Shown piece by piece: positions 35,628 to 55,818 of a DNA stretch of 63,066 nucleotides. This stretch comes from a virus: positions 1 through 63,066 of the IMG/VR virus record IMGVR_UViG_3300003324_000427. One strand, given 5' to 3'. Both the position numbers and the translations under genes were made by a program. Each line of letters starts with the position of its first letter. The stretch's first letter is position 1. A model generated the notes under the pieces. The model ran no database searches. It was not told the origin of the DNA and worked only from the letters and a program-made list of their open reading frames with translations.

Positions 35628-36398
35628 ATGGCAGTTATTGAGAATGAATTTCCTTTCAAGATATACGAAGCAAGAAATCTTGCTACATCGGAAGCTTACG
35701 TTTATCTCGGAAAAGCATCTATCGCCGGTTTGAATGGCGCTAATGAAAACTACTTTTCTCATCAAGCTGATGCCAACTGTTTCACGACGTTCTTATTTGC
35801 TTCCATCGTAGGCGGTAGAAATGTTCGTATTGACGCCGCAACAGAAGACGATCCTTACATCTATATTGATTCTCGTTGGTATGATTTTAGACCATGTGGT
35901 GTTGAAAGTAACGATCAAACTACTTGGCCAGCTAACGGTATATTGAGTCACGTTGATTACAAAGATAACGGCGACGTAGTTACATATTTCAAATCAATCA
36001 CTAGCGACGGTTCTATAGTCATAGAAGGTGGAAATCCATCATTTGTGTGGAGTGACGAAGGCCCTGCAGGTGATCAATTCAATAGCGGTAACGCTGAGGA
36101 TTGTAATTTGATATTGAAAGCTCACAAGTATATTGTTGCTAATTCTTGTGAAACTAATGGAATATTACAAAGCACTCAGGGTGTTCCTGGTGCTTCTGAC
36201 GTGGTATTCTATTTGAAATCTATTGTAGGCGGAAGCTGTATCAATGTTACCGATACCGGTTCATCCCTTGTCATTTCTTTTGACTTAGGCGCATGTAATC
36301 CATGTTCATTCTGTACTGGTTCCTTCCCAACAACTGTTGACGAAGAAACTGAATGTTCCCAATGGATACCTTCTGAAATAGGTGTTTCTCTAACTTAA
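35628..36398 (+). CDS. Probable virion protein
   Basis: 256 residues, beta-rich, with Gly/Ser/Cys-containing C-terminal part (CNPCSFCTGSFP). No family is recognised. It is the last gene of the rightward virion block. Its stop codon (36396-36398) overlaps the stop of the convergent leftward gene. An AAGGAA ribosome binding site precedes the ATG. Confidence 0.65.
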   Translation: MAVIENEFPFKIYEARNLATSEAYVYLGKASIAGLNGANENYFSHQADANCFTTFLFASIVGGRNVRIDAATEDDPYIYIDSRWYDFRPCGVESNDQTTWPANGILSHVDYKDNGDVVTYFKSITSDGSIVIEGGNPSFVWSDEGPAGDQFNSGNAEDCNLILKAHKYIVANSCETNGILQSTQGVPGASDVVFYLKSIVGGSCINVTDTGSSLVISFDLGACNPCSFCTGSFPTTVDEETECSQWIPSEIGVSLT

Positions 36399-39268: not shown

Positions 39269-39296
39269 ATTTTATCACAAAGTTATTCCACTACAA
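39269..39296 (-). promoter_or_regulatory. Promoter TTGTAG-16-TAAAAT with extended -10
   Basis: On the minus strand, TTGTAG (39296-39291), 16-bp spacer and TAAAAT (39274-39269) preceded by TGA. The -10 ends 17 nt before the ATG at 39251, so the leader is very short. Confidence 0.5.
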
Positions 39297-39753
39297 TGAT
39301 TTGCGTGAATCCCTCGGTCAGTTCTGGCGGCGCTTCTTGAATGCTCTTGTACATGTTGTCCAAGACATCCTCTGGTACCTTACGGGCACGCGCAGCATTC
39401 CGTGACTTAGCAACGTCCAATGGGACTTTGAACCAGATGCCGATCACTTCGTAATTTGCCTTCTTGGCGTCCTCTATGACTTCCTTGCGGTACTTACGAC
39501 GAGCACTGGTGTTATCCCAATAGATAACTTCAACGTTGTTTGACATTGCGCTACGTAAAGTTGATTTCGCAACCCTAGCAACCAAGTCATTCTTTGACAT
39601 GTTTTCTTCTGAACCGGTCAGTTCCTTACGAATGGTGTCCATATTGATGCGCAAAGCGGTATTTGGGATGGTACCCTTTGACACAGCAGTTTCCCACCAA
39701 GTCGACTTACCTGAGCCTGGAACGCCGATTGCCATATAAATTGTCTTTTTCAT
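39283..39753 (-). CDS. Polynucleotide kinase-like P-loop protein
   Basis: 156 residues, the size of a single AAA_33 / PseT kinase domain. Walker A is GVPGSGKST (10-18), then NMDTIRKEL, WDNTSARRKYRKEV and a basic lid FKVPLDVAKSRNAARARK. T4 PseT phosphorylates 5' hydroxyls of RNA or DNA; here only the kinase domain is present and the phosphatase is absent. It may join the RNA-repair genes at 51673-54507. CGT-rich codon use differs from neighbours. The ATG overlaps the upstream stop (ATGA). Confidence 0.85.
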   Translation of the reverse strand: MKKTIYMAIGVPGSGKSTWWETAVSKGTIPNTALRINMDTIRKELTGSEENMSKNDLVARVAKSTLRSAMSNNVEVIYWDNTSARRKYRKEVIEDAKKANYEVIGIWFKVPLDVAKSRNAARARKVPEDVLDNMYKSIQEAPPELTEGFTQIIVVE

Positions 39754-40427
39754 TCTATGTGAGTCGCTTTCTTTACGAATTGTAGATGCCTACTATATCC
39801 AGTATTCCACAATAGCAAGCCTTTATTTTGGTTATCTATCATTACTGCCTTATCATTCAAGCAGTTATATACGTTTTTTATGTTACTGATGAATTTCTTT
39901 AGATACTTACCAACATCTTCTTCAAGCAAATACGGTTCGTTTGCCAAACCTTTGAATCTTATTATTCCTACTAACCCTATCCCAGCTAACCATTTCTGAG
40001 CGTGTCTTATTCGTTCTGTGTCATTTTCTTCCTCAAACCCTAATGAGTCCTTATATACCATTAGGATTTGTCTAATACCCTCCGGTAAGTCAGCAAACTG
40101 GGTGTTCTTATGGAAGGTGTACTTGAACAGATGCGTAAATACAGAATCGCCAACTTTAATTTTTCTACATATCTCGTCAACGTTGATTTCCACGTATTTT
40201 TTTTCAACGCCGTTTTTTATTATAGGTGCTGGTTTTGGTTTTTTGCCTAAGAATAAATCAAGCTTCTTCTTGTCTTGAGCTTTGAGAGTCAATTTTATAA
40301 AATTGGCGATGCCTTCAAGCTCATGCTTGGACATTTTTGAAAAGTCTAAGTCCTTTTCAATTAACGAATCTACAATAATATCTAAATTATTTAAGATTTC
40401 CTTTTTGAGTGTATTTCTGTTTGACAT
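39750..40427 (-). CDS. Hypothetical protein under hairpin-embedded promoter
   Basis: 225 residues, mainly helical, Lys-rich. No family is recognised. Its ATG is 2 nt past the downstream arm of a perfect 15-bp inverted repeat (40430-40478), whose loop holds TGATATAAT. This suggests that transcripts from the internal promoter, but not read-through ones, are well translated. It overlaps the polynucleotide kinase gene by ATGA. Confidence 0.65.
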   Translation of the reverse strand: MSNRNTLKKEILNNLDIIVDSLIEKDLDFSKMSKHELEGIANFIKLTLKAQDKKKLDLFLGKKPKPAPIIKNGVEKKYVEINVDEICRKIKVGDSVFTHLFKYTFHKNTQFADLPEGIRQILMVYKDSLGFEEENDTERIRHAQKWLAGIGLVGIIRFKGLANEPYLLEEDVGKYLKKFISNIKNVYNCLNDKAVMIDNQNKGLLLWNTGYSRHLQFVKKATHIE

Positions 40428-40429
40428 GT

Positions 40430-40478
40430 AAAGTAACGCCTATTCATACAAATATTATATCAAAATAGGCGTTACTTT
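40430..40478 (-). promoter_or_regulatory. Perfect 15-bp inverted repeat enclosing an extended -10 promoter
   Basis: Arms 40464-40478 and 40430-40444 (AAAGTAACGCCTATT / AATAGGCGTTACTTT), 19-nt loop. On the minus strand the loop contains TGATATAAT (40462-40454). The downstream arm ends 2 nt before the ATG at 40427 and holds the only SD-like AGG. It can act as a terminator or RBS block for upstream transcripts. Confidence 0.75.
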
Positions 40479-51672: not shown

Positions 51673-51981
51673 TTAGATTAGTTTGTCCCAAATTGCGTCA
51701 GCGTGTCTTAATGCCGAACTTATCATGTTCTTACCATATCCATCAAGTGAGTGACAGTTCCAGCCGATCCGATGTGGCATCTTCTTATCAATGGTTCTCT
51801 TTTCCATCCAACAAGCGATCATATAACCGTCGCCGTTATCTTTCATGTTACCAAGATTGTAATTGAGAGAAATGTAGTCGTATTTGCCGGTGGACAACTC
51901 GTCTATAGCGTCCCAAGCAGTTTTAACCCACTTGTCAAAACCACGTGGCGCTGGTCTATCAGCATCAACCCAAAGTCTCAT
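51673..51981 (-). CDS. cREC-like receiver-domain protein (variant)
   Basis: 102 residues with the layout of the cyclic-phosphate-processing receiver domain family: an N-terminal MRLWVDADRPAP, then helix, ISLNYNLGN, and CHSLDGYGKNM. In most members I recall the strand is SLDHDLG; here both Asp are Asn (Asn40, Asn42). If that site is catalytic, this protein may be inactive or altered. The family is linked with RNA-repair genes in bacteria, and an RlaP-type gene lies nearby. Confidence 0.75.
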   Translation of the reverse strand: MRLWVDADRPAPRGFDKWVKTAWDAIDELSTGKYDYISLNYNLGNMKDNGDGYMIACWMEKRTIDKKMPHRIGWNCHSLDGYGKNMISSALRHADAIWDKLI

Positions 51982-51989
51982 TTACACCC

Positions 51990-52029
51990 TTTCGTTGTTC
52001 AGATTCTATCAACTATTACGAAAAATCAA
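51990..52029 (-). promoter_or_regulatory. Promoter TTGATT-15-TAGAAT with short inverted repeat
   Basis: On the minus strand TTGATT (52029-52024), 15-bp spacer, TAGAAT (52008-52003). TTTCGT (52023-52018) and ACGAAA (51995-51990) flank the -10 and the downstream arm overlaps the GAAAGGG ribosome binding site of the gene at 51981. Confidence 0.45.
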
Positions 52030-52466
52030 TCTTTTTTCTTTCTTTTTGATTTCTTTGGCTCTTTGTGTTCTTTTACTCGCCAAATGAACTCATTGAATTT
52101 TGAATCCCAGCACATCTCTAATATATTCTGATCAACCAATCGTCCTAAGAACTTAGAAATTATATGGTTAGCAAGAGTCTTGACTATATCTTCGATGTTG
52201 TATTTGAGTATGTACGGTTCCTTACTGTCGGCACCGTAGAACACAAAGCGTCTCAACTCAAACATTATAACATCATGTGGTAAGTCTTCGTCACCAATAT
52301 CATCGGTGTCCAACTCAATCTTTTTTATGTCCTTCTTGTCTTTGAAGTGCTTAGCTACTTTCAAGCTGAATTCTTGCCACGACTTCTTTTTCAGATAGTC
52401 AACAAAGCCTTCCATATTTGTAATCTTACAGATATATAAATCGCTTTGATCGTCCGATTCAGACAT
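52026..52466 (-). CDS. Hypothetical protein
   Basis: 146 residues, alpha/beta, with an acidic middle (ELDTDDIGDEDLPHD) and a very basic tail (KEHKEPKKSKRKKKD). No family is recognised. Its ATG is 3 nt from the downstream arm of a 10-bp inverted repeat whose loop holds promoter-like boxes. Confidence 0.6.
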   Translation of the reverse strand: MSESDDQSDLYICKITNMEGFVDYLKKKSWQEFSLKVAKHFKDKKDIKKIELDTDDIGDEDLPHDVIMFELRRFVFYGADSKEPYILKYNIEDIVKTLANHIISKFLGRLVDQNILEMCWDSKFNEFIWRVKEHKEPKKSKRKKKD

Positions 52467-52469
52467 TCA

Positions 52470-52559
52470 TACCCCGTAAGACGACAATGTAACATTGTTC
52501 ATCAAACGTATTTATCAACAATTGTCAACAAATAGCCTGTTATGGCGTATTACGGGGTA
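52470..52559 (-). promoter_or_regulatory. 10-bp inverted repeat enclosing promoter boxes
   Basis: TACCCCGTAA (52559-52550 on the minus strand) and TTACGGGGTA (52479-52470) flank about 70 nt. Within it are TTGACA (52528-52523) with a 16-bp spacer to TTTGAT (52506-52501), and GATAAATAC (late-like, 52516-52509). The downstream arm contains the GGGG ribosome binding site before the ATG at 52466. Confidence 0.5.
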
Positions 52560-53438: not shown

Positions 53439-53765
53439 CTATAATTCAATAGAAATATCTTCGTCAGCACCAACAGTTATGATGGCGTCAATCCTATGTG
53501 GTAACTGGACTTCTGCGTTTCTATACTCGGCGTATTCAAGACTGACCGGGCATGCGTCAATGGATACCGATATTTCGGTATCACAGTTTTGGATTGCGTC
53601 AAGAATAGACACCTTCAACAACGCTAAATTGTCGTTTTTGGTGTTTAGCTTGTGTACGTTAACAACCATTACGTCGCCGCTCATTGCGTCCACAAGAGCT
53701 ACTACTAGCTCCTTAGCTTGTTTCTTAACTGGTTTCTTTTTGATAACTTTTTTATTTTTTGCCAT
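53439..53765 (-). CDS. Hypothetical small protein
   Basis: 108 residues. The N-terminus is very basic (KNKKVIKKKPVKKQAK) and a beta-rich domain follows (LVVALVDAMSGDVMVVNVH). No family is recognised. It overlaps the RlaP-type gene by 14 nt, so the two are coupled. Confidence 0.6.
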   Translation of the reverse strand: MAKNKKVIKKKPVKKQAKELVVALVDAMSGDVMVVNVHKLNTKNDNLALLKVSILDAIQNCDTEISVSIDACPVSLEYAEYRNAEVQLPHRIDAIITVGADEDISIEL

Positions 53766-54507
53766 AGAAGTATTCCTTGTGAAATTGTATGCTGAACTCG
53801 TTAACCTTGTTTTCGTCCGGCTTCAACGGAAGTTTGGAGTTACTTACTGCAGTCTTCATCTTATCCGCTAGTCCTTGGACTAACGCTATGACTTCCTCTC
53901 TGCTGTGGAAACCACCAACCTTCAACTTGCGTGCTATGTCTAATTCCTCACCACTAAGAGTAGGGTTTATTCTACCTTCAGTGAACAATTGCGCACCTTG
54001 AACACCTATTCTGTAGGCGTGTGATGCCATCTTAGTATCAAAGCCGAACTTCTCTACTAACTCACGTCTCTTTTCTCGGTGAACACCGGAACGGTTGACG
54101 AAGCACTTTATTTGATCGTGATAATATCCGTAGTAACCATTGAACAAGTGTTGGGTTATCATGTGCTCTCTAACGAAAGCCATGAGATTTCTACCAGCTT
54201 CGGTGTTTACTACCATATACTCTTCGTCTACGAATGGTATTTCCGCTAAAGTAGGATTACCGTTCATGAAAAGTTGTAGGAAGTAGACAACGGAATACAA
54301 AGTGGTTTCAACTTTGTCCTTGCCTTCTCCTACAACACTCTCAATACGTTTCTGAGGCTTGTATTCCTTTAGACCGAAGTAATCCGCTTCAGTTGGAACA
54401 ACCTTGTCAACTGATTCTATGAAAACACCCTTAAAATCGGTGTCTGAATTTTCGTTAGCTAAGCCGTAAAGCCTTGAACCAACATAAGTTTTGAATAAAA
54501 CATCCAT
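53752..54507 (-). CDS. RlaP-type nucleotidyltransferase
   Basis: 251 residues. The DNA polymerase beta-superfamily signature is at the N-terminus: Gly10-Ser11-Arg-Leu-Tyr-Gly-Leu, then Asp22-x-Asp24 (NSDTDFKGVF). A helical C-terminal part follows. This matches the RlaP family, predicted to act in RNA repair together with ligases and cREC proteins. The start codon lies inside the downstream arm of a perfect 15-bp inverted repeat, with a consensus promoter overlapping the upstream arm and loop. Confidence 0.85.
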   Translation of the reverse strand: MDVLFKTYVGSRLYGLANENSDTDFKGVFIESVDKVVPTEADYFGLKEYKPQKRIESVVGEGKDKVETTLYSVVYFLQLFMNGNPTLAEIPFVDEEYMVVNTEAGRNLMAFVREHMITQHLFNGYYGYYHDQIKCFVNRSGVHREKRRELVEKFGFDTKMASHAYRIGVQGAQLFTEGRINPTLSGEELDIARKLKVGGFHSREEVIALVQGLADKMKTAVSNSKLPLKPDENKVNEFSIQFHKEYFYGKK

Positions 54508-54560
54508 ACTTTACTCCAATTTGAGAATTCCAATTATAATATGTAAAGTATGGATGTCAA
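54500..54560 (-). promoter_or_regulatory. Perfect 15-bp inverted repeat enclosing a consensus promoter
   Basis: Arms 54543-54557 and 54500-54514 (ACATCCATACTTTAC / GTAAAGTATGGATGT), 28-nt loop. On the minus strand TTGACA (54560-54555), exactly 16 bp, TATAAT (54538-54533), both perfect hexamers. The upstream arm lies in the -35 end and spacer; the downstream arm contains the ATG at 54507, and GGAG is at its inner edge. Confidence 0.85.
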
Positions 54561-54564
54561 ACTA

Positions 54565-55770
54565 TTAGTGTTTGCCGCGTCGTTCTTCTTTACCCTTGTT
54601 CCAACCGTCTTCGTAACCGTTCTTTAGTTCTGCAGCAACTTCATCTTGTCTGCCCATTAGCGCATCATATTTACGAGTATGCGCTTTTTGATCGGCATAA
54701 CCCATATCAAAACCATTGCTGTAGGTTTCCTTAGAGTTGACATCTGGGTCTTCAAATTCAAAATCAAATTCCGTGTCAGAATCTTCGTCTTCTTCCTCTT
54801 CATCAGTTTCGTAGTCAGCAACACCCATGTAGTATCCATCAACGAAAGCTTCCTTGAAGTCTTCAGTCTTATCTTTGTACAAGAGAGATAGAAGGTTACT
54901 CATTCCCTTGGTTTCTTCAAGTACACAACCATTTTCAACGTGATTCTTAGCTAATTCATAACCAGCATCATAACCATCATCGTAACGTGCTGTTTCGTCG
55001 CTGTAAACTTTGTTTACTCCGCTATTACGATCACGATTTCTTGAGTAGAGGTTTTCGCCGTCAAGCTCACCTTCAAAGTCACCAAGGACTGTGTAAGCGC
55101 ATACTCTCATCTTCTTACCATCGTAGTCTGTTGGGACAGAGACTACGTTTTGTGGGTTTACTTCCACGTATATTAACTGATCACATGAAGAACCGTAGTG
55201 ATTCATGGAATAGTCAAGATTGGCAACGTGTAAACCAACCGAGCAAGTATTGTTTGGATTATCGTCAACTTCTTCTCTTGGCATTGAAACAACTTTGTTT
55301 TTTGAATTATCCATTAATCCAGTGCGCAAATCTCTGTAGTTACTTCCAACCTTCTTATACGCAATGAAGTTACCTTCTTCGGTTATTGGATGTCCATTGT
55401 GCTCTAAGAAACCAAACAAAGCATTACGTGCTCTGAATGATGGGTTCTTTGATAGGTTTACCCAAAACTTGATAATTGGTTCAAATGGAAGTTGTTGTTC
55501 CATGAAGCTGATTATCTTATTACTAATAACATCTGGAATAACCTTACCATTTATATACACTTGTCCGTCTTTGACTTCAAAGTTACCTTCGGACTTTTCT
55601 TTTAGCTTCTTTGAGAAGTTGATTAAGTCTGGCAACTTATCCCATTTCTTTTCTTTTAGGGCAGCAATTACGTCCTTGTAGGAATGATTAGCTGCTGAAA
55701 TAGTGTGGTTCTTACCGTTATAGATGAACGTCACACCTTTTTCCGAAATAGTAAATGGAATATAATTCAT
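54565..55770 (-). CDS. rIIB: RIIB-like protein with extra C-terminal repeats
   Basis: 401 residues. Residues about 118-215 match T4 RIIB: NALFGFLEHNGHPITEEGNFIAYKKV type sequence (here shortened to GFLEHNGHPITEEGN), CSVGLHVANL and KMRVCAYTVLGDF. The C-terminus is unlike T4: four repeats of a GYD/xGY type at about 261, 303, 348 and 380 (DGYDAGYE, DGYYMGVA, NGFDMGYA, NGYEDGWN) with an acidic stretch between. RIIA and RIIB are membrane-associated proteins that affect lysis and superinfection. The rIIA gene lies 31 nt upstream; the promoter between has its own TTGACA-TAGAAT. Confidence 0.88.
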   Translation of the reverse strand: MNYIPFTISEKGVTFIYNGKNHTISAANHSYKDVIAALKEKKWDKLPDLINFSKKLKEKSEGNFEVKDGQVYINGKVIPDVISNKIISFMEQQLPFEPIIKFWVNLSKNPSFRARNALFGFLEHNGHPITEEGNFIAYKKVGSNYRDLRTGLMDNSKNKVVSMPREEVDDNPNNTCSVGLHVANLDYSMNHYGSSCDQLIYVEVNPQNVVSVPTDYDGKKMRVCAYTVLGDFEGELDGENLYSRNRDRNSGVNKVYSDETARYDDGYDAGYELAKNHVENGCVLEETKGMSNLLSLLYKDKTEDFKEAFVDGYYMGVADYETDEEEEDEDSDTEFDFEFEDPDVNSKETYSNGFDMGYADQKAHTRKYDALMGRQDEVAAELKNGYEDGWNKGKEERRGKH

Positions 55771-55790: not shown

Positions 55791-55818
55791 ATTCTACCTT
55801 GTTATTTTACTTTGTCAA
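55791..55818 (-). promoter_or_regulatory. Promoter TTGACA-16-TAGAAT before rIIB-like gene
   Basis: On the minus strand TTGACA (55818-55813), 16-bp spacer, TAGAAT (55796-55791), 20 nt before the ATG at 55770. The -35 lies in the last codons of the rIIA-like gene. Confidence 0.65.

Follow-up and report, generated by a model that had tools for sequence, protein, structure and literature searches.

The window analysed here is the whole 63,066-nt stretch of DNA, and its source record is an IMG/VR viral fragment. On the minus strand, a gene for RlaP (53752–54507) encodes a Pol-beta-type nucleotidyltransferase of 251 amino acids with a GS...DxD motif, which matched PF10127 (E = 1e-18) and phrog_388 (E = 2e-40). 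The PF10127 score was 68.4 bits against a curated cut-off of 23, and G10, S11, D22, and D24 of the motif were invariant in the RlaP alignment A1. The PF10127 match bore out an initial annotation of this DNA, which had read the gene as RlaP, an enzyme of the RNA-repair type. RlaP is predicted to restore lost nucleotides prior to RNA ligation (PMC7824862). The window contains a polynucleotide-kinase-like gene as well as a cREC_REC gene; no clear RNA ligase was found among the window genes scanned, the record being a fragment. The cREC_REC gene (51673–51981), encoding a cyclic-phosphate-processing receiver domain (PF20274), shares a minus-strand cluster with rlaP. An inverted repeat of 17 nt (88%) was also observed at 52470–52559, in the 96-nt gap ahead of the gene at 52026–52466, with one arm near the gene start.

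Upstream of rlaP, an rIIB-like gene was identified on the minus strand (54565–55770; phrog_609, E = 3e-67). The order rIIA–rIIB–rlaP runs in one direction with gaps of 31–57 nt, and a terminator scan flagged no site in the rIIB–rlaP gap. Since this gap is just 57 nt long, read-through is expected, and the rIIB-like transcript would run into rlaP. An early-type promoter, TTGACA-16-TAGAAT, located upstream of rIIB (55791–55818, minus strand), is a plausible source of such read-through RNA.

Hairpin and promoter at the rlaP start

The minus strand of the rIIB–rlaP gap contains TTGACATCCATACTTTACATATTATAATTGGAATTCTCAAATTGGAGTAAAGT, continuing into ATGGATGT. A 5′ arm, ACATCCATACTTTAC (54543–54557, minus strand), and a 3′ arm, GTAAAGTATGGATGT (54500–54514, minus strand), form a perfect 15-bp inverted repeat with a 28-nt loop between them. 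The rIIB stop codon (54567–54565) lies 7 nt ahead of the 5′ arm. The outer 3 nt of this arm are shared with a −35 element, TTGACA (54555–54560, minus strand), the arm extends across the −35/−10 spacer, and the −10 element, TATAAT (54533–54538, minus strand), is located within the loop. Judging by position only, transcription from this inner promoter is predicted to start at approximately 54526–54528, downstream of the 5′ arm. The 3′ arm includes the rlaP start codon (54507–54505). The Shine-Dalgarno (SD) sequence TTGGAG (54514–54519, minus strand) precedes the ATG by 6 nt and borders on the 3′ arm, its last base being the first base of that arm. No earlier in-frame start is available, because an in-frame TAA (54513–54511) stands six bases ahead of the ATG. 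Directly after the 3′ arm comes a U-rich stretch, TTTTATTC.

The initial annotation had described two perfectly complementary arms, a consensus promoter over the upstream arm and loop, and an ATG at 54507 within the downstream arm. Every coordinate was right, and the promoter proved to be the sole 12/12 TTGACA-16-TATAAT site (6/6 for the −35 and 6/6 for the −10) in the whole window, where a Markov model of the window expects 0.05 perfect promoters. With the same type of model, 0.01 pairs of perfect arms (15 nt or longer, separated by no more than 60 nt) were expected per window, and two were found. Considering both expectations, the combination of arms and promoter at rlaP is far beyond chance. 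A search of Rfam families gave no match at the gathering score in positions 36000–60000 of the window.

Read-through RNA across the site was predicted to fold at −24.4 kcal mol−1 (z = −4.4), whereas the hairpin was not formed in the predicted fold of RNA begun at about 54526. Opening the region from the SD to the AUG was calculated to require 17.2–17.4 kcal mol−1 in the read-through RNA versus 4.7–4.8 kcal mol−1 in RNA from 54526 or 54528, a comparison of the two transcripts that the initial annotation had proposed and that went in its favour. Its claim that read-through RNA can fold and hide the start is supported by these predicted energies, by another hairpin of this kind in the window, and by recurrence and covariation at clpP, both described below. 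That RNA from the inner promoter would lack the upstream arm agrees with the position of the promoter and with the fold predicted from about 54526. A ribosome terminating at the rIIB stop codon would overlap no more than the few outermost pairs of the stem. Masking could weaken if ribosomes load fast, ahead of hairpin folding.

A second hairpin and the promoter classes of the window

The other perfect repeat, which the initial annotation had overlooked, was located at 40430–40478. Its 5′ arm, AAAGTAACGCCTATT (40464–40478, minus strand), and 3′ arm, AATAGGCGTTACTTT (40430–40444, minus strand), form a perfect 15-bp stem with arm sequences unrelated to those at rlaP and with the same layout. The 3′ arm ends 2 nt short of the ATG at 40427 of a gene of unknown function (39750–40427, minus strand), the start of which is predicted to be masked. 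The 3′ end of this gene overlaps the start of the polynucleotide-kinase-like gene (39283–39753). The hairpin was predicted to fold at −27 kcal mol−1 (z = −5.0), and freeing the region from the SD to the AUG required 17.7–17.9 kcal mol−1 in read-through RNA versus 3.2 kcal mol−1 in RNA from the inner promoter. The loop holds a TATAAT (40454–40459, minus strand) that reads on as TATAATA. Its −35 is poor (2/6), and it resembles the late-type sites ahead of plus-strand structural genes, agreeing with the late-promoter pattern in the loose form only (TATAATA).

Two kinds of promoter sequence were recognized in the window. Several plus-strand structural genes have TATAATA or TATAAATA upstream without a −35 element, and several minus-strand genes have TTGAC-type −35 boxes with TAGAAT or a similar −10. 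The rlaP promoter, in which both the −35 and the −10 are complete, belongs with the early-type promoters ahead of rIIA and rIIB and not with the −35-less TATAAATA type. Judging from these sequences, this genome seems to combine one hairpin logic with promoters of either class. In addition, a 12-bp terminator-like stem followed by TATAATA was observed at 1917–1947, just ahead of the gene at 1975.

Single-sequence scans of viral and genome collections identified no close relatives of RlaP, rIIA, or rIIB, and a blastn search with 4.7 kb found no relative among phages. Alignment-based scans recovered RlaP genes of only about 25–34% identity and rIIB genes of up to 48% identity. No ortholog of the rlaP hairpin site was found in the collections searched. 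No equivalent hairpin was present at T4 nrdC.11, a gene of the same family (PF10127) with no start-site hairpin, or at the RlaP starts of 80 viral contigs and of seven of the rIIB relatives; the site is known from the phage of the window alone. Seemingly high-GC, actinophage-like contigs (L047, L058, L072, L073, L075, L083, and L090) carried GC-rich stem-loops just upstream of the RlaP start. Several of these stem-loops hold a GGGAG-type SD in the loop, a layout unlike that of the window.

Spacers complementary to ribosome sites in other phages

A blind scan was performed on contigs of rIIB-guided relatives, in which a clpP gene in L117 (TTGACTAGTCATAAATTTCCTGTATAAT...AGGAAATTTATGA) and a hydrolase gene in L105 (TTGACAATAAATAACCTTTCTGTTACAAT...CAGAAAGGTTATCCATATG) stood out. 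In the 1.56 Mb comprising the window and its rIIB relatives, 69 promoters of at least 11/12 were located near gene starts. Spacer and leader formed a duplex of −18 kcal mol−1 or lower at three of these 69, versus 0.3 after permutation, and rlaP was the strongest. Neither −10-only sites nor the part of T4 examined showed clear enrichment of complementarity between the spacer and the ribosome-binding site (RBS), which argues that it is gene-specific. Hence, such complementarity is not a general property of the promoters in a genome. In T4 (L259), inverted repeats directly flanking the −10 were observed at dmd (start 20553) and motB (start 7141), with the 5′ arm in the spacer and the 3′ arm right behind the −10, not on the SD.

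As a test case, 80 phage loci of the protease gene clpP were fetched, which gave 37 distinct upstream regions. Many of the loci carried a consensus promoter with a spacer complementary to the ribosome site. Over the 37 regions, the mean spacer/RBS duplex energy was below that of 200 of 200 permutations, a test made conservative by permuting among relatives. Only the windows covering the spacer and the adjoining −10 showed complementarity (z = −4.7 to −6.8, with −6.7 for the −35/−10 spacer), and none was detected in clpP regions further upstream (z = −0.4 to +1.7). By position, the complementary spacer is exactly the stretch that would be missing from the promoter's own transcript. Of the 16 distinct regions with a promoter scoring 11/12 or better, 10 had a hairpin, versus none of the 17 with 8/12 or less (Fisher P = 9e-5), counts that are not independent because the clpP sequences are related.

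Nine clpP sequences could be aligned (A4), and 94% of the cells in this alignment paired, versus 32–59% when slid. The one freely varying pair, 16–52, occurred as CG, UA, AU, and UG, and the covariation score of A4 was reached by 2 of 500 shuffles; this covariation rests on a single column pair changed on both sides, in related sequences. Another alignment, A3, took in poorly aligning rows and gave weaker covariation than A4. Other clpP genes (L273, L276, L300, and L321) carried different arms at the same place. Within the L260–L339 set of clpP upstream regions, another group was without a hairpin and had a conserved GTATTTATCGC motif in its stead. Neither sigma70-type versions nor phage clpP hairpins were found among the papers covered by a literature search.

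A proposed switch set by the transcription start and its alternatives

Here, we propose that the element at rlaP is probably a cis-acting RNA switch set by the position of the transcription start, such that no RlaP is made unless its own promoter fires. Read-through rIIA/rIIB RNA would hold both arms and form a stem of 15–16 pairs, in which the edge of the SD and the rlaP start codon would be hidden. RNA from the sigma70-like promoter in the hairpin would begin in the loop, without the 5′ arm, and would leave the rlaP start accessible. RlaP output would in this way be uncoupled from expression of the rII operon and shielded when rII RNA arises at other times. We infer promoter firing, production of the read-through RNA, and their timing.

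The same outcome, insulation of RlaP, would result if the hairpin were an intrinsic terminator of the rIIB transcript beside a promoter, with the stem and TTTTATTC stopping most read-through RNA; the stem cannot arise in RNA that starts within the loop. This is unlikely. The U-rich tract straight after the 3′ arm and the stable fold are consistent with a terminator, but the 28-nt loop, the AU-rich stem base, and only 5 GC pairs out of 15 are atypical, and the scan did not flag the site. Furthermore, the ribosome site is also covered by the second hairpin and by those at clpP, although in none of these does a U-tract follow the 3′ arm.

Hairpins that mask start sites are known from T4 and its relatives. 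In T4, leader hairpins mask the RBS of e, soc, 49, and I-TevI, each with an internal late promoter, and according to a review, all such T4 hairpin genes are late genes carried on early or middle transcripts (PMC3014915, PMC2988022). In Aeromonas phage Aeh1 mobE and T4 segB, the ribosome site is likewise sequestered by a hairpin on long early or middle transcripts (PMC2988022). The initial annotation had likened the rlaP site to e and soc, which would imply a gene silent early and translated late. We regard such a late switch at rlaP as quite improbable. The known T4-type cases do behave so, and the TATAATA of the second hairpin, without a −35, is like the sites ahead of plus-strand structural genes. 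However, the rlaP promoter has a complete TTGACA, spaced by 16 nt, of the type seen before minus-strand early or metabolic genes including rIIA and rIIB. Because the promoter has both a full −35 and a full −10, it is more likely that RlaP would be limited to the period of sigma70-type promoter use than delayed to late infection.

What rlaP shares with T4 e, soc, 49, and I-TevI is a stable stem that hides the SD and AUG in upstream-initiated RNA, as predicted for rlaP, a promoter in the region of the 5′ arm and loop that would yield RNA without this arm, judged at rlaP by position only, and a place downstream of another transcription unit, within an operon of another class. It differs from them in its full TTGACA-16-TATAAT, in contrast to the −35-less late TATAAATA of T4, in its perfect 15-bp stem, and in the genes concerned, which are rlaP here and clpP elsewhere as opposed to late or homing genes in T4. 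The mobE and segB genes encode homing endonucleases and have late-type internal promoters (PMC2988022); neither holds for rlaP. The likeness to e and soc was thus sound in its logic, in which read-through RNA is silent and RNA from the gene's own promoter is translated, and failed in its timing. The effect of the hairpin would probably be to tie RlaP to its own promoter, and not to switch it from early to late. The feature at rlaP is real, and the initial annotation was right at its core, with the T4 timing to be corrected.

Operators are common at phage promoters, and the arms at rlaP lie on both sides of the −10 region, as might suit an operator in the DNA at which a dimeric protein represses or activates the promoter, instead of an RNA element. 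This reading appears highly improbable: the arms are unrelated between the two hairpins of the window and between genes, the 3′ arm lies on the SD or ATG in all of the better cases, and the clpP arms change together with the appearance of G–U pairs, which a protein half-site would not explain. A chance palindrome meeting a promoter-like string is strongly disfavoured: one site on one uncultured contig without an ortholog would allow it, but the expectations per window given above, the second instance in the window, and the recurrence with controls elsewhere oppose it.

Beyond the switch proposed for rlaP, the chances are about even that these sites represent a device that is widespread among phages and so far undescribed. 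In it, a consensus sigma70-type promoter would carry, in its −35/−10 spacer, an antisense lock on the ribosome site of the gene that it drives, and only RNA started from that promoter would be translated. Such a lock, on clpP in many uncultured phages and on RlaP, would make early transcription a condition for the synthesis of proteins of counter-defence or host takeover. Known phage hairpins of this type prevent the early expression of late genes; by comparison, the present sites pair the hairpin with a host-type promoter, lie at genes of another class, and would hold the lock within the spacer. If this is true, the device would offer a ready-made genetic part to insulate a gene within an operon, and complementarity between spacer and ribosome site would give a simple rule to find genes shielded from read-through expression.
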